A stretch of 64,000 bases of DNA from positions 34,548,144-34,612,143 of the forward strand of contig OX485809.1 of NCBI GenBank assembly GCA_950295325.1, read 5' to 3'. This DNA comes from Polytrichum commune (taxonomy: Eukaryota; Streptophyta; Polytrichopsida; Polytrichales; Polytrichaceae). Numbering within the stretch: position 1 is the first letter of the stretch; each line of letters begins with the position of its first letter. Below, one piece after another: positions 5,567 to 55,818 of the stretch. A program made the position numbers and the translations under genes. Under the pieces are notes generated by a model, which was given only the letters and a program-made list of their open reading frames with translations, did no database searches and was not told the DNA's origin.

Positions 5567-5764
5567 ATCGATAAAGATAACCCGAAAGATGTCGGCATGT
5601 GATTGGTGCACTTGCCACTTGGAAACAATAGTATCTTGCTATCTTCGTTCATTTCTGCTTTTTCTATTATAATTACCAATTTGCCAGCCTGCCACTGCCC
5701 CATTTTGTCTGTTTGTCCACATACTAGTTCAAAGAAACTGAACTAGACTCAGTCACTCAAACTC

Positions 5765-5978
5765 AACCGGTTCATTTGAAACTAACTCGAATTCAAGAAG
5801 TTGGAGAGTGCCGCTGGAACAATCTCCTCCTACAATCTTGAACTTCAACAAGTGTTTTCTCAAACTCAACCGGTTCATTTGAAACTAACTCGAATTCAAG
5901 AAGTTGAAGAGTGCCGCTAGAACAATCTTCTCTTGCAATCTTGAACTTCAACATGTGTTTTCTCAAACTCAACCGGTT
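5765..5978. repeat. 103-bp tandem repeat with AACCGGTT at each register
   Basis: AACCGGTT occurs at 5765, 5868 and 5971, exactly 103 bp apart, each inside ACTCAACCGGTTCATTTGA. Units also share GAATTCAAGAAGTTG and ATCTTGAACTTCAACA. The unit is related to the right-hand end of the AACCGGTT MITE family, so the larger element seems to have captured and amplified part of one. Confidence 0.85.
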
Positions 5979-6993
5979 CATTTGACGACTGCAATCAAGT
6001 TATCTCTCACCGGTCTCTCAGTTGCTTTAGCTTTTAGTTGCATATGTTCGATTCATTAGCATCCTAAATCTTGAGAGTCTTATTCCTCTCTTTTGTTGTG
6101 GGTTGAGTGCAGATTCGAGGGCTGTGCAGGAAATTTCTGTCAATTCGAGTTAAACCCTAGCAAATTGCAAGGTTGAGCTTGTACGTTGTTGGGTCAATGT
6201 ATGAGTAGATATTTGAGCCTTACATGTGCCTAAGATGGTGGAAGCGTTGTCTTTGCAAGGATAGTGCAAGCGTTGTCTATTTATTAGTTGGATTGATTTT
6301 GCAGGTTCAAGTCTCAAGCCCCATCATGATTCCGATTAATTTTTAAAAATGTTATTTTTAGAACCCGTCCAAAGTGAATTTGACACGTCCCAAAACCGGT
6401 TCATTTTCTAAGAACCCGTCCACTGGAAATGTTTTTTTTTATGAACATGTCCCTAGACATGTTAGGGACCTTGTGAAAAAACACCCCTGAGTGTTACGTC
6501 AAACCTCACCAACAACAACATGTTTGTGGCACTCATTAAATGCAACCTAATCACAATCCGTTTTGTAAGGCATTTTTAGCAAAGACCAACATTATTTCAG
6601 TGTAAACGGGAAACTCAGACGCATCCTCAGAAGCATCTTCACACTCCAAGGCAAGGGACTGAGGCAGTAGGAATAATAAGCATAGAACAATCTAATCTCT
6701 AGTATGATTTGGTCTTGCCAATTTCCTGTGTTCACATTGCGGGAGGCAACTTACAAAGTTGCAGAATATGTCAGTTGCATAAGTGGTGATATGTAATGTT
6801 ATTTGAAGGTGTGCTTGCAGAAATGTAGAGTTAAATTCTCTCTCCTGGGAACTCACTCGTCTTCCGTGAGATGAGACAAGATTTGCATTGCAATCAGGGT
6901 GTAGGGTTTAGGGAGTCTATGTGTTGGCTGAGTAGCAGATAAACCCCATGCGAGGGGAACGCAATCAGAGAGTAAGAATCCACATACATACAA

Positions 6994-7029
<36 letters not shown>
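6994..7029. repeat. (CA)n(TA)n compound microsatellite
   Basis: Ten CA units run directly into eight TA units. It lies within the first copy of the PORR 5' duplication. Confidence 0.95.
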
Positions 7030-7582
7030 GCATAAAAAAAAAATCTCTTCTTTCCAATCAGGAGATGATTGAAAGCCCGGTTCTTGCAGAAACTTGCTTT
7101 TTAGCTGTTGGATAGGTTGGAGGCTGGCTAATCCAGTCGCTGACATTGTTCCAGGATATGTATGATGGACGACTTTCGTATCCATGAAACTCATTTGTTG
7201 GTGTAGCTCATTATCTCGGTGATCATAGTTGGGTCATCGAATGCTCTGTTTTGGATTTAAGATGATAGGTTTTTTGAAGCAGACGTAATTGATGCACTGC
7301 TTCATTTGCACATTTGGGCTACAACCGGTAATATATATATCAGCCATGGCAGCAGGGAGTTTCTTGATGCAGAAACTCGCTTTCTTCATATCTAAGTTTT
7401 GGGATATGTATGATGATGGACATTTCTTTCATATACATGAAACATGAGAGCTCATTTTTCTCGGTGATCACAGTTGGTTCACCGAGTCTTTGTTCTGGAC
7501 CACAGATGATATGTCTTCTGAAGCAGGCATAATTGATGCACTGCTTCATTCGCACATATGGGCTACAAATTGGTGAAATCCA

Positions 7583-7681
7583 ATGTCAGCTATGGCACCG
7601 GGGAGGTTGCGTATACGACATCCGACATGGTTTTCACGATGTATCCTCAGTATATCCACAGTGGCTGTGTTTAGAGTATAG
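7583..7681 (+). pseudogene. Truncated copy of the PORR exon 1 start
   Basis: Reading from the ATG at 7583 gives MSAMAPGRLRIR, which matches residues 9-20 of the real protein (MSAMAAGRLRIR) with one change. Homology then fails and a TAG follows at 7679. This is the 5' coding end carried in the middle copy of the upstream duplication. Whether it is transcribed as an upstream reading frame is unknown. Confidence 0.7.
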
Positions 7682-7888
7682 GGTTTAGGTTGAGGACGGG
7701 CTAATTCAGTCCCTAACAATGTTCCGGGGTATTTATGATGATGGACAATTCTGTTATATCCATGAAACTTCTTGGTGGAGCTCATTTTTTCGGTGATTAC
7801 ATTTGGTTCATCGAATGCTCTGTTTCTAGACTAAAGATGATAGGTCTTTTGAACCAGACCTAATTGATTCGCTACTTCGTCCGCACGT

Positions 7889-10641
7889 ATGGGCTACAAA
7901 TTGGTGATATCCATGTCAGCCATGGCAGCAGGGAGGTTGCGTATACGACAACCACGATACGTGCAATGGAGGCATCTAAGAACACAGGTGCATCCTCGAG
8001 ATGTTGACCGAGATTATGCCAAGAGGCCTCGACCATGGACAGAGCCAGGAGTCATGCGGTTTCCCGAACTCGAGTTTGATAAGGTGGCTGCCAAGCAACA
8101 TGCATTTCGGATGGTCATGCAAGTTCAGGAGCTTCTGGCCAGGCATCCAGAGAGGTTGTTAGACATCATAGAGCTTGAAACAAGAAACCCTAAGTTGGCT
8201 GCTGCCGTAAGAGCATACCCCGGGGTCTTCAAGGTTCTGGATTACTGGCAGGGGAAAAGATTGGTTTGCTTTACAGCAGAGGCTGAATCTCTGCACAAAC
8301 AAGAGGAAGGGTTGAAAGCAGAGATTGAGATGCGGTCTGTTGGTGTCCTCCAGAAATTGCTTATGCTGTCTGTTCAAAGGCAGCTTCCATTGAGAAGGAT
8401 AGAGATGTTGGCCATGGACCTTGGTCTGCCTGGTGACTTCCAGCAGGATTTGCTGGGGCGATTTGGACATGTTTTCAGGCTCTCTACAAAAAGTGATTAC
8501 ATCACTTGGTTAAGCCTCGTTGCGACGGATCCCGAGTTGGCAGTCAGCTGTGCTGAGCTTCAACACAAGCAACGAAGGCCTGGTATGTATAACTCAATTC
8601 TTTGTGTTTTGTGTTCTGTTTTGTGCATTTTATTTGGGTATCATTCCATCTCTAAGCGCCACTTTACACTATGACCATGAAATTGTGAGGGCCCTTGAAC
8701 CTCATTCAAAGGTGGTGCATGGAAATTGAAATTGGATATTGTGTGGGTATGGGTGTCCAAGTGTAGTGTAAAGATATATGAGACTGGGCTCTCAACTGAA
8801 TGCTATTTTATTACCATCTTATTCATTTGGGTCCTTCTACACAGTAAGTTTTAATAAATCAAGGGTTGTGAGATTTTGAATTGTCTTGATGATGCAAATT
8901 TGGTAGACGATGAAACATTCTCCAATTCATGCCATGGAGGACTTCATGTAGGTTTTCAATTCATTCAAACTTCCATGGTCCCTCAGGCCCTCAAGCTCTA
9001 GTGTAAAGTGGCCCTAGGTATATTCTGTGGCAGGGTGGATATTTGCACCAATCTGTTTGTTTGGACAAGGCAGTTGTGCATCAGAGACACTTTCTTGAGT
9101 AAAGTGTAGTTGGTCAAGCAGGTCATATACTGATGTATCTATTTCACATTAGCTTTTCCCTTCCCTAAATATCCGAAGTCGCTCAATCTGAAATGTGTTC
9201 TAGATTCGTGTTGTGATCTCACATACAATTTTCTTCCTAATCTGAAGCACCTTTGAGCAAATTCTTTGTGGAAAAGTAGGATTGTGGAGATCTGGCTTTC
9301 TCTTATATCCTAAGTGTCCTTCCTAAAGTCCACAAAGAATTTGTGATCTGCTTTTGACATGATACTTGTGTAATATCCACAGTTCTGATTGTAATATTAA
9401 TGACAGTTTTCCTTGACATTAATGACTGAAAGATTACCTGATGTTACAGGGGTCTCCTACTGAAACTGCTGACACTATCCCTCTCCAATTTCTTTTCTTC
9501 TGTGGGATGTCACTCTGCTCTCCACCCCTTCAAGCAATCGCAGGGAGTTGCTTACATAACAACCTTCCTACAATCATCGATTGGTGATTAGTAGTTGGCA
9601 TATAAAATTGAGGATTATCTAACATTGACATATCACATCTATTGTAGTATATTGAAGACTGTAGGCATATATGATAATCACAGCTAGTATGCTTTCCATA
9701 AAAACAATTTGGCAAAATCAACACAATCAAGCATAGATCATCAGTATTCTGAAAATATTCTGAAATGCTTTGAACAAAATGGAGTACATTTGAGGCTATG
9801 TACAGCTTTCTGACCTAAAACTTCTATTAGTAGAAGAGGACTGTTTCAGACTTTATTCGCATGCAGCCTACCATATTTGTTGAGGTCTTATTTTGTTGTT
9901 TCTGAATATGCTGCACTTCCTTTTATGACTTGATGAGGCGACTAAAAGTGGCTCATATTGTTATTGTTATGGATGTCGAGTTGGATTGTCTGATTGATTG
10001 ACTACAAGATCAGGCTTATGCTCATAACCTCTTCTCTTGATCATATTGGAGCATAACAAGAGTAGTTTGCATTTGGTACTTTTCAGATTGCTCATTAATC
10101 AAGCCGTTTGCCTCTCTTGCAAATCTAAAAAGATCTCTACTTCTCAACGAGGACTTTTTTTTATTGGAGGTTAACTTTGATGTGTACCTTGTGTGCTCCA
10201 GGAATGATGACTGAAATGGAAATGTGGATGCCTAAAGGGAACATTCTTTCAAAGAGGCATCGGAAGTTTCTAGCGCGCTTTCGAGAAGCCCCTTTTGTGT
10301 CACCATATGCAGACTCTCAGGGATTGAATTCGCTTGATATTAAACTGGAAAGACATGCTGTTGCAGGATTGCATGAGCTTTTGAATCTAACTTTGGAGAA
10401 GAGCCTCATGCTCGACACCCTGACAGGATTCAAAACTGAGTTTTCTTTTTCCCACAAACCATTGAATCTAGCCCTGCGGCACCCAGAACTCTTTTATGTA
10501 TCCGCAGTCAATAAACAGGATGTGGTGTTTTTACGGGCAGCCTATGACAGAGGCAAATTATTAGAGAAGAACTCACAAGTGTTGCTAAGGGAACAATTTG
10601 TCAAGCTACTAGAAACAGGACTAAATCAACAAGGAAGCTAA
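7889..10641 (+). CDS. PORR-domain organelle RNA-binding protein (two exons)
   Basis: Exon 1 is 7889-8582 and exon 2 is 10202-10641, joined through a GTATGT donor and a CTCCAG acceptor (phase 1). The product is about 377 aa ending LNQQGS. The first ~45 residues are rich in Arg with almost no acid, as in an organelle transit peptide. Three in-frame ATGs (7889, 7913, 7922) compete; 7913 or 7922 would remove the odd leader MGYKLVIS. From about residue 50 to 350 the protein matches the plant organelle RNA recognition domain (PORR, formerly DUF860), with the family-typical blocks LLARHPERLLDIIELETRNPK, YPGVFKV, LPGDFQ, FSFSHKPLNLALRHPELFYVS and YDRGKLLEKN. Known members bind and promote splicing of group II introns in mitochondria (WTF9) or chloroplasts (WTF1). 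Which organelle applies here is not determined. The 1.6-kb intron holds a MITE at 8656-9014. Confidence 0.92.
8656..9014. mobile_element. Inverted-repeat MITE inside the PORR intron (GGGCCACTT family)
   Basis: The ends are GCGCCACTTTACACTATGA at the left and the complement of GGGCCACTTTACACTAGAG at the right, about 359 bp apart. Flanking triplets are TAA on the left and TAG on the right, so a 3-bp duplication is possible but not proven. The interior shares blocks such as GGTTGTGAGATTTTG and CCATGGTCC..AGGCCCTCAAG with the larger elements at 18023 and 36541. It lies in intron 1, so it is expected to be spliced out. Confidence 0.8.
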
Positions 10642-21735: not shown

Positions 21736-22544
21736 TTAAGTCGGAGCAAGTGAATTACTTATTTGGAGTTTGATTCATGATAGTTGTAATGTCTCTCGAA
21801 AAGGGAGGAAAAACAAGAGGCATGATCCACCCAACCTTGATCCTTATATACTTGTAAGAACTAAGAGTTAAAGCTCCCCTCAACTAGTCCTCAAGCATGT
21901 AGTTAACCCCCCTGCCTTTGGGGTGAATTAAGTGCTCTTCGCTAATGATCGTTACTCGTGAGGTGAGGACATTGTGTAACGCCACAATCCCAACTAGTGG
22001 GTAACTCCCCTTTACCTTTAAAAACTATTAGATCTCCCATGGCAAAGTCCTCTAGTCTTACAAATAGTAAAATCTAGTGGGAATTAGAATCCTCTAATCT
22101 TATATATAATAAAGTCTAGTGAAAATTAGAAATAGCAAAAATAACTAATAAATAGATACATGTTACAATCCCTACCAAGAAGGGTAAAAACTTATCTCTC
22201 CTAAGTTTGTTGTCATTCTAATTAGATCCCACGACGTTGTTTATTATATGTAATGTCACTTACTATCTATAATAACAGTGTGCATCTTATTCAAGAATGT
22301 AAGTTTCACCAAGCAAAGCTCGTAATGTTCTGAATTGTGAAAATTATAGCAAGAATCTTAGCATCGAGTTTTACCATTAATCTTAGCAAGCAGTGCTAAT
22401 TACCATACATAAACGGCCAAGACTGGACCGGGGCCAATTACATCAAAAACGAAATATCATTGGGCTACATGATATTTCTGTATGTTTCATCCTTCTGACG
22501 TGGCAAAAAAACATACCACAAGTTTACGACTAAACAAATTAGTC
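21736..22544. other. Intergenic DNA, nothing recognised
   Basis: AT-rich, with a short local repetition of AAATCTAGTG/AAGTCTAGTG near 22070-22120. No gene or element boundary seen. Confidence 0.5.
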
Positions 22545-23215
22545 TAGCATGGTCCAGTTGGAATGAATTGGCCCTCCATGTATATGGGCATGGCTCCACG
22601 ATAGGTGAGTTCACATAGACATCACGAAGCCCAAGCCCAAGAGCATAGGGGTGTCTACGTAAAGTCATCTTTTGGGAAGGTGGAACCACAAAGAAGCATT
22701 CTAAAGCCTGCAATTTTACACGTTTAGTTGGGTTTGACTTTCAAAATGGTATTAGAAATCTTGAGCTAAGTCTATTAGAGTCCATTTGGAATGAATCGGC
22801 CCTTCACCTATATGGGGTTGGTTCTATGATGGATAAGTTCACAAAGACAACACCAAGCCCAAGCCAACGATAGTCATGGTGTTTAGGTAAACTCGTCCAT
22901 TGGGGAGGTGAAACTGCAGTGACATAATCTACACCTTGTAATTTCTACTTGTCATTAATTTGACTCCACCTATTGCATCGGAGATCCAAACCTCCCCCAA
23001 AATTATTCAGTATGATCCAACTGGAATGAATCAACCCTTAACTTACATGGGTCTCAATCTTTCTTTTCTTTTCTTTTCTTACTACAATGCCTTAAATTGA
23101 CTGTGAATGGGATCACCTAGACTCCACAAAGCCCAAGGCAATGACGCATGCAATGACATCAACCATGTATGTAATATGTCCTATTCAATCTAAGCTTCAT
23201 GTTGCCAATAGTGTT
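22545..23215 (+). repeat. Three-copy tandem repeat, ~230-bp unit, diverged
   Basis: TGGAATGAATtGGCCCT-type words begin at 22559, 22787 and 23022, spacings 228 and 235 bp. Each is followed in order by TATATGGG or ACATGGG, a CACAAAGACA/CACATAGACAT block, AAGCCCAAGcC and GTCTACGTAAA or GTTTAGGTAAA. The third copy is the most diverged and is interrupted by a TTTTC repeat at 23061-23080. Confidence 0.75.
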
Positions 23216-24800: not shown

Positions 24801-25092
24801 GGGCTGGTGGGGGCTTTGTCTACAGACCTGATCATCATGTGCTCGTGCTTGTATTCGAAAGCACAGCACAGCAAAGGGAATGCAACTGTACATTGTCATT
24901 TGTCGCCCGGGGGGAGGGGGGCACTTTTGTATGATAAAAGGCCCTGGCCCGGCCGCATCTCAACAAATCTCCAAAACTGTTGAATGTTTCAAGCTCGTGG
25001 TTCCTAGCGCTATGGCCCTGGGGTTCTGCACCCCCCCCCCCCCCCAAGCCTTTCCCTTGTACATTTCGAATAATGTGTGGCACGACAATCAT

Positions 25093-26075
25093 TGCGGGGT
25101 CCCTCCGAACAACACACGTAAATGGGAATATTGGAACTGTATTAGCTTGAACTACATAGTGAGGTGAGGTTAGGAAACATTAATTAACTTCTTTGAAAGC
25201 CGAGATGCATGTTTTTGTCTGGGTAGTCATCGTCACCTGACCACATTTACGCTAGGATCTTATGATTGGGGCATGTAGACGGGTGGAAACTTGCGGAGTC
25301 CCTCTGAACAACACACGTAAATGGGAATATTGGAAATGTATTAGCTTGAACTACATAGTGAGGTGAGGTTAGGGAACATTAATTAACTTCTTTGAAAGCC
25401 GAGATGGATGCTTTTGTCTAGGTAGTCATCGTCACTTGACCACATTTACGCTAGGATCTTATGATTGGGGCATGTAGATGGGTGGAAACTTGCGGAGTCC
25501 CTTCGAACAACACATGTAAATGGGAACATTGGAACTATATTAGCTTGAACTAGTGAGTAAGGTTAGGGAACAATAACTCTCCTCAAGGCACCGAGATGGA
25601 TGCTTTTGTCCAGGCAGTCATTGTCACTTGACCACATTTACACTATGATCTTATGATTGGGTAACGTAGACAGTTGGAAACTTGCGAGTCCCTCCGAACA
25701 ACACATGTAAATGAGAACATTGTAAATGTATTAGCTTGAACTAGTTAGTGAGGTTAGGGAACATTAACTCTCCTCAAGGCTGAGATGGATGCTTTTGTCC
25801 GGGCAGTCATCGTTACTTGACAACATTTACACTATGATCTTATGATTGGGGCATGTAGACGGTTGGAAACTTGCGGAGTCCCTCCGAACAACACATGTAA
25901 ATGGGAACATTGGAACTGTATTAGCTTGAACTAGTTAGTGAGGTTAGGGAACATTAACTCTTTTAAAGGGCCAAAATGGATGTTTTTATCTGGGCAGTCA
26001 TCGTTACCTCACAACATTTAGGTCATGGTCTTATGATTGGGGCATGTAGACAGTTGAAAACTTTGTGTGAACAAC
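25093..26075 (+). repeat. Five-copy tandem array, ~195-bp unit (satellite-like)
   Basis: The word TGCGG(A/G)GTCCCTCCGAACAA or a variant recurs at 25093, 25292, 25491, 25683 and 25872, with a decayed end at about 26062. Spacings are 199, 199, 192 and 189 bp. Each unit then carries CACGTAAATGGGAA, TTAGCTTGAACTA, GTGAGGTTAGG, ACATTAA, GATGGATGCTTTTGTC, AGTCATCGTCAC and ATCTTATGATTGGG. Copies 1 and 2 are nearly identical. The period is close to a nucleosome repeat. A 15-base C run lies just upstream at 25031-25045. Confidence 0.92.
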
Positions 26076-31301: not shown

Positions 31302-33088
31302 AAGCATGGGGGTGGACGCTTCATACTACGTACAAACTAAGGCCAAGGTTCCATGTACCGGTCCCGGTCTGTTTTTTAAATGGATGAGAAATGGGTGACA
31401 TCATCCAAAAAATGGGTGATGTCACCCATTTTATGGAGGGGCACTTCTATGTGGGGTGCCGGTTTATTTCGATTTCCTACTTTCTAACTAAATTTGGTGA
31501 GTGATAAGACATGACACTTTATGAATGTCACCGGCAATGGAGGTCATCATCATTTAACTTTTCATATTTGATTTGCACATCAATTTCCATACATTTATTG
31601 AATGAATTCCAAATTATGTGTTGTTGATATGCGTAGGTTGGTACTACTGTCATCTATGGAAATATGTAAATATGTAAATATTTTTATATTTTTAATTGAC
31701 ATTGTCATTGTACATTGTTTATAAGTGATTTTTGATACTTTTTTTTATTAAACCGGACACGTAACATGGGCCATCATTAGTACATATTGACTAGAATTAA
31801 GATAACGGTAATCTAGAATGAATTTAAAGTAAAAGCACATAGTTCATTATTTTTGCGTTAATAAATTTGCAAAAATAACATGCATTTACATGGTTTAGGG
31901 TTTGTTACATGGTTTGTTACATGGTTTAGGGTTTGCCTCGTAAAAGAATTGAATTGTTACAGAGGAGAGATTCCTCATGTGATTGTCAATATATGGTTTA
32001 GCTTATTGACACAATCCATGAATATTTTGATTACTTTGGCCAAGATTGGGTAACAGGCTATAGCAGGACACCCTAATTAAAAATCATAGTTAATCTAACA
32101 ATGTCGACAATTTTGATTAATGTTGACTACATTGTAAATTTCAAGTTACACTAACTTCAATTTCAAGTTTCCTAGGTGACCGGCCGATCCGGTCACCGGA
32201 GCTTTCTAACTGGCACATGTCCTTCTTGTGACCGTTAGGACCGCCAATCCTTTGGCACTCGTTCTTGCACAACACAAAATATGGGACACCCATCCATGGG
32301 GGGTACCGATCCTTAGGTGAGAGGGATGGGCACATGGCACCACCCTCTTTTCACCGGCCCACCCTTTTTTTTTTTTAAAAGGACAGGGACCGGTACATGG
32401 AACCTTGCCCTAACATGAGCGTAAGAAGGGTTATTATTTGAGGCATTAGCGTACATAGTATACATAAGGGATATGTGTTGTTTTCCTTTAGTGTGTATAT
32501 TCAAAAAGGCTATTAAGAATCATGAAGTAAAGGTAGATGTACAAAAGGGAGCCCTCAGGTTTAGAGACTTTTTTGACAACATATGTGTTGGTTTCATAAA
32601 ATTCACATTTCATCCATTGTCGTCACATGGTAATAATCCTCAATGACTATCATGTCCATTCTTTGAATGACTTGCATTCAAGTTTAGGTTTTTGCAAACT
32701 GGAGGCTCTTGGAACACTCACAAACTCCCTTGAGATTGGCTCTCCAGATCGAGGTTAAGTTAAGTTATTGTGCATTGGTCTCTGTTTGGTTGATGTAGTC
32801 ATTGAGTTGCATGAAAAAAATGTCCAATGACTTTCTCATGGGAAAAAAGTGAAAGTGGATTCTATTTGTTCAACGAAGGCCTATTTAACTCATGATTTAC
32901 ATTTTGTACATATAGCAGAGGCGTTTATCACATTAAATCAACAAGATTAGTACAAACACATGAGTCCATTTTCTTACACGCCATCAGTACGAATACATTT
33001 GCTTTTCTTTATAAACCTCTCGTATACCACGGGGGGTTTATTCCCACCTGACCCACGCACGTCATTTAGACTTCCAATGAAGAGCTCA
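31302..33088 (+). repeat. Dispersed repeat R1, copy 2, split by a PIF/Harbinger-like insertion
   Basis: The left piece is 31302-31340 (GGTGGACGCTTCATACTACG) and the right piece 32411-33088. Together they align in order with 3178-3868. The insertion at 31341-32410 lies between, flanked by TAA on each side, while copy 1 has one TAA at the same point. Confidence 0.75.
31341..32410 (+). mobile_element. PIF/Harbinger-like non-autonomous element, 1070 bp, copy 1
   Basis: The ends are GGCCAAGGTTCCATGTACCG and the complement of GGGCAAGGTTCCATGTACCG, with a TAA duplication at 31338-31340 and 32411-32413. GGGC-type ends with TAA/TTA duplications are typical of PIF/Harbinger (Tourist-like) elements. 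Sub-terminal palindromes such as AATGGGTGATGTCACCCATT (31408-31427) lie near the left end, and two TTTAGGGTTTG words occur at 31896-31937. No transposase. The copy at 54337 is inverted and about 400 bp longer. Confidence 0.88.
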
Positions 33089-35311: not shown

Positions 35312-36291
35312 TACTACACGCATTACCGTAGTTTACTAGCAGGTTCGGCAACTTGCTGCCTAATATTTAATTAAAGTTCAAAAAGTAGGTTCGGCACCTA
35401 AAAATAGTATATTCACATTTTCAGCAATTTTCTCTTTTAATTTTTAAAAATTTGGCTTCAATTCGTTTTTAATTTTCTATTTAAGCTTACATCTTGAACA
35501 TCTCTCTTGCATTAAATGACAAGTAAGATGTAAGTGAAGTGTTGAGAATGCTTTGTGCTTTATGCAAGTAGAGTGGAGTTGTGTTCAACAATGCATATGG
35601 GATATGTAAACTTTGAGGTGAAGCACCTAGTTAGACTTCATTTTTATAACACGCATAACTTTTGCATAGAGTCTTCAAATGACATAAAATTTGTTGGAGG
35701 TGAAAGATTACTTGATTTCTAAACTTTTCTTAGACCAACAAAATTCCAAAAAAGTTGATCTTCTATGCACAAATGAGCTCCGAAAAACTGTTATGAACGC
35801 ATTTTAATTTTTTGATCTTTACACGGCTGCAATGTTTTGTCCATATCTTTTGCATAAAGACTTATTTTGACACAAAACTTGTTGGAGGTAGAAGAAGGAT
35901 TGATTTCTCAACTTTTGTTAGTTGGACAAAATTTTGTAAAACTTCATCTTCTATGCTCAATTGGACTCCAAAAATTTGTGTACAACACATTTGAAAAGCC
36001 TCATCTAGAATCTTGCTACTTCTTAACCCATATTCTTTGTGGACTAATGTAAGTGAGCTTGATTACAAAAGGAGCACCTTCTCTCCTTCAAAATTCACAT
36101 ATGCTTCCACTGTAAGTAAAACTCTAGTGAGAAGTAAAAATTTCTTACTTTTCGGCAATTTTGAAAAATAATTAATTTTATATTGGACAAAAAATGCCAA
36201 TAATATTCCAAAATTTTAGGCATCTATTTTTAGAATTATTTTGTGCCTAACCTGCTATTTAACTACGGTAATTGGGATAATACATGTAGTG
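35312..36291. mobile_element. Inverted-repeat element, ~980 bp
   Basis: ATTACCGTAGTTTACTAGCA at the left is inverted at the right as ATTACCGTAGTTAAATAGCA; the match continues through AGGTTCGGCA and AGGTTAGGCA. Outside these, ACTACACGCATTA and the complement of ACTACATGTATTA extend the repeat, so the outermost bases resemble CACTA ends. No clear duplication. The interior contains a ~187-bp tandem duplication (35650-35995). Confidence 0.7.
35650..35995 (+). repeat. 187-bp tandem duplication, diverged
   Basis: CATAACTTTTGCATAGAG at 35654 corresponds to CATATCTTTTGCATAAAG at 35842, and TTGTTGGAGGT at 35691 to 35879. ATCTTCTATGC and a CTCCgAAAA/CTCCAAAAA block follow in both. The period is about 187 bp. 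Confidence 0.75.
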
Positions 36292-41039: not shown

Positions 41040-42290
41040 AGGTGCGGTGTATTTTCTTGGAATAGGAATAGCAATAGAAATAAGAAGAGGATTAAGAAGA
41101 GTCGGAGGAGTCGGGAGCAGACAGGAAACTCAGCGCAATGAGGAAATTCATTTGAGATTTATTTTTGGGTATCGGATCGCACTTGGTCTTTGCTACTGAG
41201 GTATTCATTGTAGCGTTCTTGGAATGATGAGAGGAGGAGGAGGAGGAGGAGGAGAAGGGGGGGAAAGAACCTCGGCGCGATCTGCGATTAGGTAAAAATT
41301 CTTTGTGCGCTTGGTTTGTTTTGGTGTGGTGTGAGATTTATTTGAGCGCATTGGAATGATCGCACTTTGGTATTTAGTTGAAGATCTTGTTCGTATTGCG
41401 ACGTAGTGTAGTTTTCTAGGAATAGGAACGGGAGTAAGAGGAGGAGGAGGAGGCAGGGGAGGACCTCGGCGCGGTCAAGTAATGGATGAGATAGATGCTT
41501 GCGAATAACTGAGTGAGTGTGAGCGTTTGAGGTGAAGTTGGGTTGAGAAACCATCGCACATGAGTCTTTCCATTGAGGTGTTCGTTGTGTAGCTATCTTA
41601 GGAATGGGAACAGGGGTAGGATGGCGGGGGAGGGGCTCAGCGCGATCATCAAGGGGCAGGTGGACTCTTGTGCGCGAGTGAAATTCGAATGCGCCTGTGA
41701 GGTGAGAGGGAATTTGAGTGATCACGATTTACACCTGCTTCTATAAGTGAAGGTGTTCGGTTACCAGTGAGGTAGTTTTCAAGGAAAGGGAGGTGGAGAG
41801 GGGACGAGGTCAGCGCGAGGAGCGAATAGGTATATTCTTGTGCGTGAGTAAGTGAGCGTTTGAGGTGAAATTAAGTTGAGGAAATATGAGTAATCACACC
41901 TGGTTTTGTAATTGGAGGTGTTCGTGTATTAAGGAAGTGCAGGTAGCTTTCTAGGAATGGGAGGAGGAGGAGACGAGGTCAGCACGAGCAACGAGTTCGT
42001 ATGCGCTTGTGCTTGAGTGACTGAGCGTCTGAGGTGGATATTCAGTTGAGTGATCGCATCCGAGATTTGAGTGATCGTACAGTGAGATATTGTAGCTTTC
42101 TAGGAATGGGAGGAAGAGGCGGAAGGAGGACCCCAGCAGCGCAATTAACGAATTGGTAGACTCTTCTGTGTAAGTACGTGAGCTCCTGAGATGGAATTCA
42201 GTGAGCTGAGGACGGTTGAGTGACATATATAGGAGTGATAGTAATACCAGTTTTTGTAATTTGAGATACTCAGGTGTAACTGAGGTTATG
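41040..42290 (+). repeat. Seven-copy ~175-bp tandem array upstream of VARICOSE
   Basis: TTGGAATAGGA or TAGGAATGGGA words occur at 41057, 41219, 41417, 41599, 41781, 41952 and 42101. Each is followed by a purine (GGA)n stretch and a core CTC(A/G)GCGCGAT or GTCAGCGCGAG, at about 41129, 41271, 41465, 41636, 41809, 41979 and 42133. Each unit then has CTTGTGCGTGAGTGAGTGAG-like words, GAGGTGAAATT, TTTGAGTGATC and GAGGTGTTCG. Core spacings are 142-194 bp. The long minus-strand frames across it (41288-41725, 41951-42376) are artefacts of the repetition. Confidence 0.88.
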
Positions 42291-44815
42291 ATGTTGAAGT
42301 GGAGTGGAATCTGTTGCTCCGAGCGTGATGGTAGCAGGATTGAGGAACAGTAGTATTCTGTAGAAGAATTAGTCAACCTCTTGGGTTAATTCCTCGGGAT
42401 AGAGATCCGAAGTGCAGTGTGACAGCTCGCGCTGTGTTGATAGGGAAGCATTGCTGATGGAACTAGTTCATCTCTCTGTTTGTCTCTCTGTTCCGGAACG
42501 TGTAGAAAGGCTAAACGTCTTTGAGCGCTTATGGTTGCGGAAAATTCCAGTTGTCACTTAGTTTACTTCCATGCACGTGCACTAGTATGTCCGGTTAAGA
42601 AATACGTCAAGGCTCGCGTAATGAAGGAATTTTCTTGAGTATGCTTTGTGCTTAAGCGAAATTTCTTTATCGCCTTTTCACTCATATTTGTGCTGTAACA
42701 GGCTCAAAAGGAAGTGGTGTAAGTCTACCTAAAGATCACACAACGCAAAATTATTTTTTGATTGCTAAGCACATGAGGCTTGCTAAGCTTGAATGTAGCG
42801 CTATTATTATTTTGATGAATCGACTTAGTCCGTGAACACAACCTCAACTGTCGAGGTTCCTTCAAAGCACAACTATACACAGTGAACCTCCATTTCGATA
42901 TGCACACCAACTCAAATTTCTGGAGAAAATTCTTGGTCATGGAAAATTGTAACACATCATGGCGCAAACAGAGACATGGGGAAGACAAAGCTAAGTCTCG
43001 TCTTAAGGGAATCTATTGTCCTGTAGAGTAGATTCTTTGTAGGTTCCAAACATAGTTTAGGTTGCATTTATTGCACGCGCTGCTCATTCCCATCAAGTTG
43101 CATTTTGTTGTTACATCTCTGTTGTAGTAAGTACTAAATTACGTTGAACGCAAGTACGCTCAATGTAGGTAGAGAGGGGAGTAGTTTGCAGTTAGAGATT
43201 TATATTTATTTCCCATGGAGAGTTAGTTTGCAGTTTGGCAGAGCCGATTGAGCTCATGCCGTGAATTTGTGATATATCACTACTGTTTAGAGTGTACTTT
43301 TTGCTTTTATTAATTGCAGATGCGACTCTCTCTTTATAAAACTCTGCATGCCGCCGTATTGACTCATGCCACGGCATTGATATCATGTTCCATTCTCGTT
43401 CAAGATTATACCAAAAGTATTTTATCCATATTGACTTGAGATAGACTTTTGAGAACAGGGTGGAGAGTGCTTCTTGCGCACATTGGAGGAACCGGAAACT
43501 ACGGTTACTCCGGGACATTACGTTGACAACGAGCTTTTGGAAACCAGCTCAGCACTTGGCCACAGGTGGATTCAATCGCCAACAATACAGCAACCAAAAC
43601 ATGCATCTCTAGCATAACTTTCTTGGGATTTGAAAGCTTACATTACTTTCCTGTAGCATGTATGAAGTCGGACGTCCCAACTATTCTACAGGACATGCAT
43701 CCAAAGTACAACGGGGGTAGGTTTGTCACTCTTTAACCCATACTTGATTGTGCTCTCTAGTGAATTTTTAGTTTAACTAAAGTAAGAACTACTTCATTCT
43801 GGTCTACCCAGTCTTTATTAATCATCCTTCTGCCTTCACCAAAACCAGAATTTTCTATCTCCTTCACTTTCTCTCCTCCGTCTGCACTCCGCTTTGCACC
43901 ATGTAGACACTTCAGGTGCGTGAGAAGATCGGCATCATTCTTTGTAGAACTGAACTAATATGGCAGAGAGATCCTTTGAGAGCAACTAATCTCTCAGATT
44001 GCTGAATATGTCAAGCCTCATTGAAGCCTCTAGCTAATATCGGCCTAATTCTAGTCTGTTAGTTCTCTCTTAGGGATAACTTGGTCTAGGTCATTCTTTG
44101 ACAAATTTGTCTCTTTGAATGCTAGTGTAGTTCTAACGGTCGTAGATTAAGACGTGAACGTGGGTGTTCAAATATTGTTCTGATTTTTGAAGGCTTCCTA
44201 TTGCTCGTTGATACACTACTGCTGTACATCCTCTGCTCAATTATCGTCGTAATTGCAGAAAGTGCTCCAGCTTTAGGCGTTGTGTGGCCGACGATCAGTT
44301 CTCCGTGGAGGTGGTACGACCTTGGATCCGTAATAGGTCAAGTATTCTGGAGATTAACTAAGAATGACCATGGATACCATCATTCCACTACACCATAACT
44401 GACAAATTAAATGTTTCTTTCATGTAGGTGCCAAAAATCCTTTTCAGATTTTCTGTGCGAGCAATATCTTTAGCACACGTTTCTAGTTGCAGCCTAATTT
44501 GAGGTAAGTAATGATTGAGTGCCCTCCATCAAAATCTAAGCTTTGACTTATCGAAGTAGGTTGGTGGTTTGTTCGAATTTTCTCTAGCATAAGCTTCGTG
44601 ACAGTGAGCACAGTGAACGGGAAGAAACGGGAGTAACAAAATCACCCAAATCCTCCAGATTATCCCTTTCATCAGTTGGTCTAAAGTATGCACTGCACTT
44701 GTGGCGTTCTCAGGACAATAAGATTACTCGGCCATTATTCATCTTGTGACTAATAAGCATTGTGCGGTGGTGTTCGCTGACCATCAGCTATGGATATGAA
44801 TGCAGAGGGTTGAAG
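42291..44815 (+). other. Probable promoter/leader region of VARICOSE
   Basis: There is no coding frame joining the gene. At 43850-43920 a pyrimidine-rich run precedes GCACC-ATG-TAG at about 43897 and a CTTCAG/GTGCGT donor-like site; it could be a leader exon with a start-stop codon pair. A minus-strand frame at 43192-43518 (108 codons) is not recognised. The transcription start cannot be placed from sequence alone. Confidence 0.35.
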
Positions 44816-47800
44816 ATGGGGGCTCCAGGTCCTCCAGGGCCATTTGATCTTCAAAAATTCTTCAGAGCGCCACCTCAGAGTCCCTACCAACCTCAATCAC
44901 CTGGCTATCAACCTTCGTCCCCTGGCAGCTCATTTCACCATCAACATTCATCCTACCCACCCGGAAACAGCGCTCCCAGCAACTATCAGCAAAGCACAAG
45001 TGGGTATTCCAACGTCCAGGGCTCAAACTACCCCTACAATACCACCACACCCCAGCAGTCGGGCTCCCCAGTCTACCATGGTACTCATGGTCCTCAGTAC
45101 ATGCATTATAATCCAGACCATGGACCTCGTCCAGTTCCTTATTCGGCTTCTCCTTTTAGTCAACAATCATCCCAATTCTCTCAACCTCCTTCGTCCCCTT
45201 CTCACTCCATCCAACCTCCACCTTCTCCCACGATGTCATCAATCCCTATGTCTTCGCAGCCGATGTTTTCTCAATCTAAATCATCCCAACCGCCGTCGCC
45301 CCTTCCTGCGTCCTCCTTACAACAAGGCAATGACAGGCCCAACACCGCCTCAAGCCAGCCATTGGATGGAGCTCGTCTCATTGCTCTCTTAACCACGCAA
45401 TCTGGAGGTGAAGCTGTTGATGATGATGAGGATACACTCCCTCTACCAGGACCCCCTCTAAACTCTCCAAGGCCCCCCCTCTCATCAAGACATACAGATG
45501 GTTCTCACAGCAGTGGAGGAGATGTAGGATGTCCTCCGCCACCCATGGCCTCATCTGGACCAGGTCGGCCACCGTCTAAGTATCCAAGGGGAAGACATCT
45601 TAGAGGAGATCACATAATTTATGATGTGGATGTGCGCAAACCTGGGGAACTCCAGCCCCAGTTGGAAGTTAGTCCTATCACCGTGTATGGTTCGGAGAAT
45701 GTCCTAGTATTAGGAAGGCAGATATCAGTGAACAAGAAATTTGTCTGCTATGGGTTGCGTGGTGGCCCTATACGAATTCTCAAAATCAACAGTGCACAAA
45801 AAGCCTTGCTTCGAGGCCATACACAAGTTAGTCTTCGGCCACTTATTTGCCTTCAAATTATGTGCTTCAATGAATTCAATGACCTTTTTGACCTTTTTCT
45901 TGATACTATTTTGCCATCATAGGACGAGCACTTGGAGAATATCACTCTAATTTTCTACTGTTGTGACAGAGGTTGAATGATATGTCCTTCTCAGAAAATG
46001 TGCATATGCTCGCAAGGTAAGCTAACATACTGCGACTCGGTGTTCAATACGTGGTAATTGGTTTTCAATTTGTAATCAGTTCAAAATGACAATGTTTTAG
46101 GGTTTTCACAATGAAGAACTTGACAATGCATTCATGCTCCATTTCAAATGCCTGTTTCCAGACTAGTAGCAAAGAGTTCGATATACTCAAAGGTTATGGG
46201 GATATATGATCAGAGCTGCTAATAAACATGAAGATCACATATACATGGTATTATTGGAACACCTGGCTTGTTGACAGGAAACTTTCAACTAAGAATCGTT
46301 ACTAATATCTTGGACTTTATGATTATTTGGTTATCTTGCAGTGCCAGTCAAGATGGGCGGATATATGTCCGTAAAATTTTGGAGGGGAATAGTGAGGATG
46401 GAAAGGTGCTAGAGCACATTCTTCTTGCTCTCCGATTAGTTGGTGATTGGGGAACATGCCATCCTCGCCTCTGCTGGCATTCGCACCTGCAGGTCTTTCC
46501 AATTTCTACTCCCTACTACCACTTTATCACCAGAAATGGGCCCTGCTATCGTAATTTATATAATTTCATACGCTACTTTACCTCCATAAGTTTTTGGTTA
46601 GAAATCTATATCCTATCTGATTCAGGGTTACTACGAGACTATGATGAAATTATACGTTGAAACTCTGGAAACTTCTTGATCCTGTGAATGGATGATGCCA
46701 AGCAATCTACTCTCCTCACTTATGAACTCTTTTGACATATGCAGGACACCTTGATTGTGGCAATTGGAAGATTTATTGTCGCAATTAATGTCAGCAAAGC
46801 AGGGCAAGGAGTAATACCAGGTGGATTTAATGGGGAACATCCTCTGGAATGTCGATTGGATTCTCCTGTGAAGGGGGTCTATGTGGTTGGAGAACATGAA
46901 GAGGAGGTCACAGCATTGGTCTATTCTCTGGCAGGTCCTCCTCGTCTAGCGTCAGCCTCTAAGGATGGCACGGTGAGTCCTTAGAGAATCTTTTCACTTG
47001 TAACGTCATTGGTGGAGCAGTCTAGTCAGTAGCCTTCTCGCATTGAATATTGGTGGTATTGAGCATTTAAGGTATGATTGGCCCCTGTTTTAGCTGCTGA
47101 ATCTATTATTTGGATTTGAATTGTTATATGAGGCAGTCGATGGTTCAACTTACACATGATTGTTGCCATGAATTTTATAAGGTCCGGATCTGGGGAGATA
47201 AGATGCAGTGCTTGTCAGAGATAAGAGGCGCACATGATGGTGGTTCAGTGGATGCCGTGGCTTACTTATCGACACCACGAAGTTTTGATCGGCACATCCT
47301 TCTCACTGCGGTACTTAAACTCATCTTTCCTACACCCATAACAAGTTGAGCATCTGTCTTGGGTGACGTATTCATAACATCCTTCTATGGTCGAGTTGCA
47401 TAAAGGACGACCAGAAAATTTAGGAGTACTCTTTAATTTGTACAATTGCATTTACTTTGCACTCCTGATTTGCACTGAACCTATAATGGAAAAATGAACC
47501 TAGAGTTCTATGAATTTGACTGCACACCAGCCCCTAAGCTCTGTGACTTGTTTGATCTTCTTATATTGTAAGTACCTTAGTTTTGAGGCTTTCTTCCAAC
47601 TCGAGTGGATACATTTTATATCACACTCGGGATTGTCTGAAATAGTCCGCTTGAGTAGACATTGATGCTCCATAGTGTGCTGCAGGGGCCCCTGAATAGA
47701 GAGTTAAAATTATGGATGTCTGAGGAGCTATCTTTCAAGTCCAGTCCAGGAGGTTGGCGGTGCATCCAGACACTGGAGTTTCAGAGTAGTAGCAAGCCAG

Positions 47801-50800
47801 AGACTGCATTTTTTAATCATGTTGTTGTGGCCCATCGAGCAGGTCTCATTTTGGTGGCTAATGCAAAACGAAATGCAATTTATGCAATTCGTGTTGATTT
47901 TGGACCTTCCTCTGCTGCTCCTCGTATGGAGTACTTGGCTGAATTCGCTGTAACAATGCCCATTCTAAGTGTAACGGTTGCAGATGATGCAATCTCTGAA
48001 AACGGGGAGGGCGTCCTCAAGATATACTGTGTGCAGACACATGCCATTCAGCAGTATACTCTTGACATGTCACAATGCTTACCCCCTGCGGACGACCTGC
48101 ATTCTGAAGGCTCTACTCCCAACACTCCCAAAAAAAGCTTGATAGTGCCACACACACCGGGGACACCCACTTCAACATCATTCTCAGCGCTGGACAAAAA
48201 TTATCCCAGTTTGATGACCATGACTAATCCAGGAGTAAGCGCATCAGCGATGAGCGCCAACACTGGCATTCCCCCACGGCCATCAGCGTTTGGGAGCTTG
48301 GTTGAGAGTCGAGGTCAACTGCACGTGACAACAGATGCTCATAAAAGTTCCGAGACCAAATTCTCCACCGTGCCATTGTTAAGAGATTCTAGAGATGGAC
48401 CAGGATCAAAGCCAACCACTCCGGGTGGACACGCAAATTCTGAAGCTGGAGTACAATCGAATAGCCGACTAAACACCCGGCCTGAGGCTTCAAGGGAGGG
48501 TCTGCCATCCTCAAATCTAACTAAGCCGCCCACGCCACCTCCGAGAAGACGCGCAAGATCAAGAAGTCCAGCGAAAGCTGATATTCAGTATAATCCTGTG
48601 TACCCTGTCCACTCCAGGCACAAAGTAGAGAAAGAAGTAAAAGACATCTGGATGGATCCAGAACCTGCCGCAGCAGTTGAGGCGTCTCTGTCCTCGTCTA
48701 GCAGCAGCTCCTTAGACGAATCATGTGACAAAGAGGACAGAGAGGGGGCGAACTCAGGCAACTTCCAGCATCAGAGTGGACCACAACTCATTACTCCTTC
48801 TGAAATTATGTCTCTCGCGGCCAGCGCCAAGAGGGATGGTCCCCAAATTCAAGGTGCGGGCCTCGATCCCATGGACGGTACGGATTGGCAAGAGGAGGAG
48901 AAATCTAGTATGTCAGGTGGTGGAAAACCTGGAATTAATGTCACAGATGATGTGCCTGGAGGTTCAGAATCGTTGCTGGAAGCTGCTGACGATTCCTCCA
49001 ACGGACATCATGCCACTGGCGTTGATTCAGTCGAGAAAGAGATGATGGCTCATAATGATGTCTGGTCTAGCCCGGGACTTAATGACGAGGTTCAAGATGG
49101 CGATAATACGGAGGACAGAGACGAGCCCAATCCGGATGATTTGCAAGAACAGCTTAAAGGAATGGCTTTGAAATTGGGTCAAGCAAATTCTAGTCTTCCT
49201 GTAATGCAATTCCAAACGTCTGCTACTCTGAAAGGAAGAAAAAGTAAGAACAAAAATGGTGACCGTGCTTCTGCAAACATACCTCTACCCACATCTTCGC
49301 AGTTGGCAACCATGCCTTCTGGAACAATGTCAGAAGGAGAGGCTGGCAATCCAACTCCAGCTCCAGTAGAAATCGGCTTGATTACCCAAGTGATTTCTAT
49401 GCAAGAATCTCTCAACCAGGTTCTGATCCATCATACCCATGTCTTTTCACGTACCCTTCCTGTAACTGACGGCGAAAGTAATATTCAGAGGATGGACTAA
49501 GTTTTCAATCCGCCCCATGATAGCAGCCAATTGCCTTACAATTTTGAAGGAACTGTATTGAAGATGACCAAGAAAATGAGTCAAGATATGTGGAGGCTAA
49601 TTGTTTTTATCAACTAGATTGAATCGATTCATTATTGCCTCATCTTTTTTATGTGTACCTTAATGGCCCATCTCATTGTGTTAAGATGTCCGTGGAACTC
49701 TGTTAATCAACAATTTGGACTTGATGTTATGTGATATAAAGAGATGTCATGTGATAAAAGTATGCTTGGCTCTCTCCAGTTGGTCACCGTACAGAAGGAG
49801 CTGCAGAAGCAAATTACGGTGATGGTCGCAGTTCCAGTCAGCAAGGAAGGAAAACGGTTGGAAGGTTGACCATATTCTTACACTCGTAGAGATGATTTCA
49901 TAGTAACATGTTGACAGGATCAAATAGAGATTATTCACAGCTTATGGTGACAGTCTAATTTATCTCAAAGAAAATTGTAGAGATGTGAATTTCCAACCTA
50001 TACCAACTGAAAACTGAATGTACTATCCAAATTTGCTATTAGGTGCACTGGGCCAACGCATGGAGAAAGTCCTGAAGGCCAATGTTGATGCTGTGTGGGC
50101 ACGGCTAGCTGAAGAAAGTGCCAAGAGAGAAAAGCAAGAACGTGAACGAATGCAGCAAGTTACCTCACTTCTTACTAATTTCATGAGTAAGGATATGCCA
50201 GTTGTCTTGGAGCGTGGGCTCAAGAAGGAAATTGCTGCAATTGGGCCTGCTGTTGCTCAGTCTATTGCAGCTCCTATTCAGAAATCAGTTTCTACAGCTG
50301 TTTCTGAAACTTTCCAGGTAGATTTTACATTGAATGCACATGTATACTTGATTAAATAAATAACAACGAAATAGGGGTTGCCAACTTGAGATGGTTTTTA
50401 AAAAGATGAATTAGCAACGGATATCTTTTAATAGATTGCTCACCTGTGTCAAAGCTCCAGCAACAAATATCTGACTGCAAAGTAACACAAAGTTTGGGTG
50501 GGTGGGCGGGGTGGCTGCACAGAAGAGTGTCGTTGAGAAAGTGTTACCCCAATTGGAGAAATCAACAATCTCTAAGCTGGAGGCAACAATGACCAAACAA
50601 CTTATGACTCAGTTTCAGACAACCGGGAGACAAGCACTGCAAGTAAGCTGGCAAGCACTTTTCAATTGAATGGACAATAATGCATTTGTTGTGGAAGGTC
50701 TAAGTATGGAAACCTTGGTGGATATTAGGAGGTCTAATTGCTAATTTTCAACCTTATTTAATTTGTCTGAGTTCGATCCAGACAACAGTAACTACTAGTA

Positions 50801-52264
50801 CCTCAATGACACTATATATATACATGTCTTTAATGTATCAAGGATCACAAGTTCTTCTTCGACTTAACAGTTTGTGTTGCTCCAACGTGCTTATAATGTG
50901 CCAGGAAGCACTCCGTTCAGGATTTGAAAACTTGGTCATCCCAGCATTTGAGCAGTCCTGTCGAAATATGTTTGAGCAAGTTGACTCTTCCTTCCAAATG
51001 GGAATGGCTGAGCACACGGCTAATACTCAGCAACAATTTGAATCATCGCATAATGCACTTGCAAGCAATCTTCAGGTTTGTTCCATCCTATTTCCTTCTG
51101 CTTCAAACTTCATGATGGGTAAATTGATCTGTTAGCAGACAAGGGGAATAATCTGGTTATATCTAAGAAATAAATGTCTTCCACCGTCGCCCAAAATAAT
51201 ATAGACTTCTTTCCAGTTATTCTTAGCAGTATCAATTCTGGATTAGGTGCTACCTGCAAGTTGCAACAAAATCAATTTTGAAAGGGGTTGTATCTGAACT
51301 GCGGGATGTGCAGCAAGCCATTGAAGGAGCGTCAACGCTAGCAAAGACTTTGAATAATGAGCTTTTGGATAGCACTGGAAAGTTGCTTGAAATGGTGGAG
51401 TTAGCTGGTGCGAACGTATCACGCAATGTGGCCGAGGTCAATCAGAGCAAAGGAACCCTGCCTGAAAAGGTAATTATATTCTGTCATCTTTCACTGGTGG
51501 TTGGTTGCCAGTTGGCTAGTCTACATACTTGAGGATCAGATGAGCAGATTGCTAGATACAATATTTTCTCTTAGCCCTGCAACCTTTGGCGCAAGTGAGT
51601 TCTGTTCGAGATCAATAATCATTCAACGTGTGCTCCAACTGAAAACAGGTGCACTCCTTACAACATGTGGAGGAGACATTGGACCCAACGATTGAGCTAC
51701 GAAGGCTTCTGCAGGAAGGAAAATGGGAGGAAGCCTTCAACAAAGCTCTAACCGTTAACGACCTGCAAGTTGTCTCTTGGCTATGTCATCAGGTTTGCTG
51801 CCTCCCTCAAATCATTCCTCATAGCCATGAATGAACCAAGCATGATTGGAGCTATTGTACTATCATTGTCTTATGATATCATCTTGCACCTGGTAAACCA
51901 AATACAAATATTGGTGAGTATTGTGGTTCTCATATTGTCTCGTATTTGCTTTCGCCAGGTCGAACCCAGTGCTATTCTTTCAGGAACGTCTCCTCGTGTC
52001 AGCCAAGGAGTTCTTCTCTCGCTAGTGCTGCAGCTGTCGTCCGAATTGACAAAGGACACAGGACACAAACTTCAATGGATCAAAGAGGCAGCTCTGGCTC
52101 TGAATCCCGATGACCCTCACCTCGGCAAATACATGCGACAATGTCTGGAGCAGGCTTACCAAAACTGTCATTGCTTGATGGGCGTCACCACAATTCCTTC
52201 CGAGCAAGCCAACCTGAGGCTGGTCATACATGTTATGAATTCCTTGATGAGTTCCTGCAAATGA
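44816..52264 (+). CDS. VCS: VARICOSE / EDC4-type mRNA-decapping scaffold (13 coding exons)
   Basis: Exons: 44816-45826, 45970-46016, 46342-46492, 46745-46972, 47182-47310, 47686-49419, 49780-49864, 50043-50317, 50523-50642, 50905-51075, 51227 (or 51230)-51469, 51649-51792, 51959-52264. All joins keep frame, giving about 1547 aa (1546 with the alternative exon 11 acceptor). Residues 1-260 are Pro/Ser/Gln-rich. From about 266 comes the EDC4 WD40 region: YDVDVRKPGELQPQLEVSPI, LLRGHTQ, LASASQDGRIYV, LASASKDGTVRIWG, GPLNRELKLWM, LILVANAKRNAIYAI and YCVQTHAIQQYTLDMSQCLP. A Ser/Pro/acidic linker follows (about 645-1080), then the helical C-terminal EDC4 domain with MVAVPVSKEGKRLE, FMSKDMP and SWLCHQ, ending VIHVMNSLMSSCK. 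Plant VARICOSE scaffolds DCP1 and DCP2 in cytoplasmic processing bodies for 5' mRNA decapping. It is longer than the ~1340 aa usual in angiosperms, mostly through the linker and N-terminus. ATG 44816 is the first in-frame ATG. Confidence 0.94.
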
Positions 52265-54333: not shown

Positions 54334-54336
54334 TAA

Positions 54337-55815
54337 GGGCCAAGTTCCATGTGCCGGTCCCAGTCTGTTTTTTTCAAAATAAATGGGTGGGCCGGTGAAA
54401 AGAGGGTGGTGCCATGTGCCCATCCCTCTCACCCAAGGACCGGTTCCCCCCCATGGATGGGTGTCCCACATTTTGTGTTGTGCAAGAATGGGTGCCAAAA
54501 GACCGGCGGTCCTAATGGTCACAAGAAGGACATGTGTCGGTTAGAAAGCTCCGGTGACTGGATCGGCCGGTCACCTAGGGTACACTCTTGGATACTAAAG
54601 GCCACTTTGTTCTTCAAGTTCTTTCTTTTGAGGAGTACTCCTAGGGAACGTGTATTTTATGATGTTTTTAGAATCTAGATCTTAACTATATATATATATA
54701 TAAGGCAAACAAACCAAAGGAAACACTCATGAAATATTTAAAAGACTATTTTGGTATCATTTAGGTGTCATAGTTAAGTTTTATTAAAACAAACACATGA
54801 TTATTTCACTTTATGTAGTGGTTACATTGACAATTAGATTATCAATTAGGGGTATAAACTTAAAAAAATTTGTATGTATCAGTGCATGCAATGTTGACAG
54901 CCACTCGCCTCACTCTAATTACCCGAACAATAATCCGGTAGTGAGTAGGCAATTTACTTACCAAAACCGGGGGCACTTGGGTATAGTTCATACTCTTGCA
55001 TTTAAATTTAGAAAATTAGTGTAACTTGAAATTTACAATGTAGTCAACATTAATCAAAATTGTTGACATTCTTAGATTAATTATGATTTTGAATTAGGTT
55101 GTCCTGCTATAGCCTTTTACCCAATCTTGGCCAAAGTAATCAGATTATTCATGGATTGCGTCAATAAGCTAAACCACATATTGATAATCACACGAGGGAT
55201 CTCTCCTCTATTCAATTCTTCTACGAGGCACACCCTAAACCATGTAACAAACCATGTAGCAAACCCTAAACCATGTAAATGCATGTTATTTTTGCAAATC
55301 TATTAACGCAAAAATAATGAACTATGTGCTTTTACTTTAAATTCATCCTGGACTACCATTATCTTAATTCTAGTTAATATGTATTGATGATGGCTCATGT
55401 TACGTGTCGGGTTTAATAAAAAAAATGTATCAAAAATCACTTATAAACAATGTACAATGACAATTTCAACTAAAAAAATAATATGTATAAATATTTCCAT
55501 AGATGACAGCAGTACCAACCTACGCATATCAACAACATATAATTTGGAATTCATTTAATAAATGTATGGAAATTGATGTGCAAATCAAATATGAAAAGTT
55601 AAATGATGATGACCTCCATTGCCGGTGACCTTCGTAAAGTGTCATGTCTTATCACTCACCAAATTTAGTTAAAAAGTAAGAAATCGAAATAAACCGGCAC
55701 CCCACATAGAAGTACCCCTCCATAAAATGGGTGACATCACCCATTTTTTGGATGATGTGACCCGTTTCTCACCCATTTAAAACACGGACCGGGACCGGCA
55801 CATGGAACTTGGCCC
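54337..55815 (-). mobile_element. PIF/Harbinger-like non-autonomous element, 1479 bp, copy 2
   Basis: The ends GGGCCAAGTTCCATGTGCCG and its perfect complement at the right are flanked by TAA at 54334-54336 and 55816-55818. In reverse complement it aligns nearly end to end with 31341-32410. Between about 54590 and 55010 it has ~400 bp missing from the other copy, either an insertion here or a deletion there. The reading frame shared by the two (for example GHKKDMC.LESSGD) follows from DNA similarity and has no known domain. Confidence 0.9.
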
Positions 55816-55818
55816 TAA

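Follow-up and report, generated by a model that had tools for sequence, protein, structure and literature searches.

A predicted PORR gene starts in the last of three diverged tandem copies of its own 5′ end

A predicted PORR gene begins within the last of three diverged copies (A, B and C) of one sequence block, which lie head to tail, in direct orientation and in register (Table 1). They were found by self-comparison of positions 6000-9000 of the window, which is the whole 64-kb stretch of DNA analysed here, and are spaced 244-248 and 325-331 bp from start to start. We consider it likely that the array goes back to an old and largely neutral duplication, in tandem, of the PORR gene's 5′ end, with expression from the proximal copy C. 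This reading is supported by the tandem order and near-constant register of the copies, by their K2P distances and by the unclustered distribution of their identical columns, as well as by the closed frames of the upstream ATGs, the five other duplications in the window and the lack of an Rfam family. A block of ~280-330 bp, comprising the proximal upstream region and the first PORR codons, would have been tandemly duplicated twice, probably through unequal crossing-over or replication slippage. The upstream copies A and B would have diverged since then under near-neutrality. Transcription and translation would proceed from C alone, most likely from the ATG at 7922, and yield an ordinary PORR protein that is presumably targeted to an organelle.

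Table 1. Positions of the proposed PORR gene, the copies in the upstream array and the other local tandem duplications in the window
Feature	Positions	Strand	Identity	Basis and details
PORR gene, proposed exon 1	7922..8582	+		Sequence and translation, Pfam PORR; ATG 7922
PORR gene, proposed intron	8583..10201	+		GTATGT ... CAG, read from sequence
PORR gene, proposed exon 2 with stop codon	10202..10641	+		Joined frame, Pfam PORR
Copy A (outer)	7081..7362	+		ATG 7346 (MAAG...), frame end 7447; TTG 7314 opposite ATG 7889 of C
Copy B (middle)	7363..7623	+		ATG 7558 (frame end 7674), ATGs 7583 and 7592 (frame ends 7681)
Copy C (proximal)	7686..7953	+		Upstream region to first PORR gene codons
Local tandem duplication	5756-5985		95%	Self-comparison
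Local tandem duplication	22541-23051		67%	Self-comparison
Local tandem duplication	25092-26063		82-89% between pieces	199-bp unit present five times, 87% matches (Tandem Repeats Finder)
Local tandem duplication	35654-35995		74%	Self-comparison
Local tandem duplication	41047-42221		59-62%	Direct repeats, offsets ~180, 360 and 540 bp

Judged by its sequence, the gene downstream of the array is an intact PORR gene. Genes of this family encode RNA-binding proteins of plant organelles, and its presence marks the window as plant DNA. The two proposed exons join into one open frame of 366 amino acids, whose product matches the PORR profile (PF11955) with 251.9 bits (E = 1e-74) over profile positions 5-324 of 326; the gathering cut-off of this family is 22.3 bits. 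Both the splice sites and the start codon are proposed from the sequence. By hand count, the 50 residues ahead of the PORR domain include 11 arginines. A comparison of the protein with viral contigs gave four pattern matches, none of which was confirmed by tblastn.

The similarity between the copies is well above chance in every pair. Gapped local alignment matched 7154-7362 of A with 7402-7608 of B (165 of 217 columns identical, score 104.0), 7113-7362 of A with 7686-7938 of C (202 of 257 columns, score 142.5) and 7389-7623 of B with 7714-7953 of C (195 of 242 columns, score 142.5). With 300 dinucleotide shuffles per pair, the highest scores were 22.5, 19.5 and 20.5, respectively, so that each real alignment exceeds the best shuffle of its pair by a factor of 4.6 to 7.3. 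The blocks at 7218, 7463 and 7791, for which a preliminary description of this DNA had claimed similarity, have the element TCGGTGAT in common and resemble each other above background. Its three diverged copies are thus borne out. Over aligned bases, identity among the copies is 82-84%, and an assembly artefact is an unlikely source of the copies because they differ at 16-18% of these bases. Head-to-tail copies whose similarity exceeds chance, one of them joined to the PORR gene, constitute a tandem duplication of the gene's 5′ end. The earlier wording that the gene start was "reached by" serial duplication holds for the duplication of the start region but overstates its direction, as copy C may be the original. 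A search with a profile of the three copies revealed no fourth copy in the 64-kb window (next best E = 0.98).

The array is shorter than first described. Instead of extending from 6865, homology between A and C begins at 7113, or at 7081 if a short match between A and B is included. This match joins the 5′ end of B (7361-7383) to 7081-7100, which lies 5′ of the aligned part of A, and was equalled by none of 1000 random window pairs; the A/B unit therefore begins near 7081. Just after this match, B lacks ~35 bp that are present in A and C. Between 6865 and 7080, the only similarity to the array is a 17-bp match (88%) of 6896-6912 to 7673-7689, the latter adjoining the 5′ end of C, and on its own it is not above chance (E = 0.41). 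At the other end, the match between B and C past 7612 stops at 7623, and its 12-bp end piece has P = 0.017 by shuffling and P = 0.052 by random window pairs. By the same two measures, there was no similarity beyond the aligned 5′ ends for A and C (P = 0.68 and 0.63) or for B and C (P = 1.0 and 0.998), and none to C beyond the 3′ end of A (P = 0.45 and 0.61). A CA and then TA microsatellite lies at 6993-7030, ~50 bp 5′ of the array.

Pairwise K2P distances are 0.30 for A and B, 0.25 for A and C and 0.19 for B and C. Among 216 ungapped columns, A carries 30 private changes, B 20 and C 14. In this count A differs from C (P = 0.02), whereas the differences between B and C (P = 0.39) and between A and B (P = 0.20) are not significant, and a faster decay common to the two upstream copies is not demonstrated. 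A may have split off earlier, or the copy in use may have changed more slowly; the pattern agrees with both. Columns identical in all three copies (150 of 216) showed no clustering in 5000 shuffles, neither by the longest run (P = 0.86) nor by window variance (P = 0.95), a comparison that has low power with three sequences. Gene conversion between the copies was considered and rejected, since neither the clustering of labels (P = 0.08) nor that of private changes (A 0.74, B 0.89, C 0.06) was significant. The hint that led to this test came from one block of 30 columns, in which A is closer to B (28 of 30) than to C (22 of 30), and from the next block, in which B and C are the closer pair (28 of 29).

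The copies extend into the region that contains the start codon. Three ATGs (7889, 7913 and 7922) lie in the PORR frame, and only that at 7922 combines G at -3 with G at +4, which is a favourable context for a start codon. The start of the PORR gene is thus most likely ATG 7922 rather than 7889 or 7913, whose contexts are weaker, and the three in-frame ATGs of C could give rise to slightly different PORR N-termini. The preliminary description had placed the start at 7889 and set it against a TTG in the outer copy. TTG 7314 of A does align with ATG 7889 of C. However, this contrast probably does not mark the difference between the gene and its decayed copies, because the context of 7889 is the weaker one; at the position of the best-context ATG, all three copies have an ATG (7346, 7592 and 7922), each within the motif TCAGC[C/T]ATGG. 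In B, the frameshift described earlier is present as a 1-bp insertion 3′ of ATG 7558. The second ATG of this copy, at 7583, opens with MSAMAPGRLRIRHP, of which 12 of 14 residues are identical to the PORR gene. The nearly identical N-terminus that had been claimed for it therefore stands, but its frame runs for 32 residues, not 12, the last 18 having no detected homology, before the stop at 7681.

These start codons pose the question whether the copies serve as alternative promoters, or contain upstream reading frames that tune PORR translation. We regard this as unlikely. The strong-context ATGs kept in A and B, which open frames of 33 and 29 codons, speak for it, and the presence of this ATG in all copies could reflect constraint; yet the copies agree at 150 of 216 columns in any case, and the conserved columns are not clustered, as far as three copies can tell. 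A second point in favour is the excess of ATGs, with 37 in 6865-7921 (two in the PORR frame) against 20.7 expected from composition; in the whole window there are 1553 against 1175.5. This excess argues against one long, efficiently translated leader. So many upstream ATGs should suppress translation from a long leader, which would place most of the array outside the mature leader. Positions 6860-7924 contain 38 ATGs. The frames of the 35 that precede 7889 are all closed by 7863, and the others are the three in the PORR frame. On an unspliced transcript, translation from any of these 35 ATGs (6860-7888) would therefore stop short of the PORR frame, and neither A nor B would supply an alternative targeting leader. 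The alternative transcription starts, upstream frames and choice of leaders proposed earlier thus find no result in their support. In a related scenario, A and B would be retained as decoy starts: in transcripts from A or B, reading frames would open at duplicates of the PORR start codon, and the choice of promoter would set the amount of PORR protein. We consider this highly improbable. If A or B were transcribed, the array would offer a natural test of start-codon decoys.

A high ATG count fits an intron or a promoter better than a leader, and the array could accordingly lie within an intron of the 5′ UTR, with a first exon 5′ of 7081 and the TCAG before ATG 7922 as acceptor. In all three copies TCAG is found two bases 5′ of the start ATG, and a donor-like CGTGAGA occurs at ~6865. 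This donor-like site is weak against the consensus, however, and no clear pyrimidine-rich tract precedes the TCAG. We rate an intron as unlikely. Such an intron would be compatible with neutral duplication, so that our confidence in the one overlaps with our confidence in the other.

Searches for structured RNA gave no family at the gathering score of Rfam in the whole 64-kb window. A permissive scan of 6000-8700 produced four matches below the gathering score, the best being SCARNA7 (27.8 bits against 65 required, nominal E = 0.00048). All four fall in 6939-7110 of the minus strand, where they overlap the CA/TA microsatellite, and we dismissed them as artefacts of that simple repeat. A consensus fold of the three copies, in which 2 of 61 pairs are changed on both sides (covariation term +0.79), lends no support to a conserved RNA fold.

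Partial tandem duplication of a gene's 5′ end is a general and known class of event. The array resembles this class in its diverged, head-to-tail units of upstream region and first codons beside one intact gene, and we found no feature that distinguishes it. It is a clear relic of repeated tandem duplication at the start of a gene, and illustrates fairly well how a start codon and the codons after it come to be copied upstream. In the R6 allele of apple MYB10, a specific promoter motif is reported to be present in more copies and to be bound by MYB10 itself, with stronger auto-activation (PMC5671642, PMC11321683). Both cases have repeated copies in the promoter of a plant gene. Unlike R6, the PORR array has a unit of ~280 bp with 16-18% divergence of aligned bases, which extends into codons, and it is not known to have an effect. 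Titles and the beginnings of abstracts on promoter duplication with a start codon contained no comparable case, and a literature search on partial gene duplication with an upstream reading frame found none.

Tandem duplication is frequent in this window. Whole-window self-comparison, with low-complexity filtering and an E-value limit of 1e-6, revealed five further local tandem duplications in direct orientation within the 64 kb besides the PORR array, making an array over a gene start unsurprising. This count excludes two of the 14 local rows, 3034 paired with 5838 and 27958 paired with 30930, because almost 3 kb separates the partners, which have the appearance of dispersed repeats. Tandem Repeats Finder returned 19 rows in all, including further short arrays. 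The window also contains other, dispersed repeat families, and the unit itself could be a dispersed mobile or repeated element inserted 5′ of the PORR gene. This seems very unlikely, as the three-copy profile found the unit at no fourth place in 64 kb, and B and C have PORR codons in common.

Only three genes were recognised in the window. Besides the PORR gene, 44750-52264 is likely an EDC4 (VARICOSE-type) decapping enhancer gene, with its C-terminal domain (PF21289) in 51752-52264 (E = 1.3e-14). Pfam gave no match in 44750-45922 or 47659-49500, which from their position we take to be parts of the same gene, and part of 45500-45900, translated and compared with the PDB, had no match either. 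The repeat array at 41047-42221 lies ~2.5 kb 5′ of the open frame at 44750. The third is a Nop52/RRP1-like gene at 61267-63656, with PF05997 in 61267-62538 (E = 1.3e-53) and no Pfam match in its piece at 62910-63656. Finally, 31338-32411 and 54336-55817 form an inverted pair of long repeats ~22 kb apart, which align in two pieces with 92% and 89% identity and are possibly a fairly recent mobile element.
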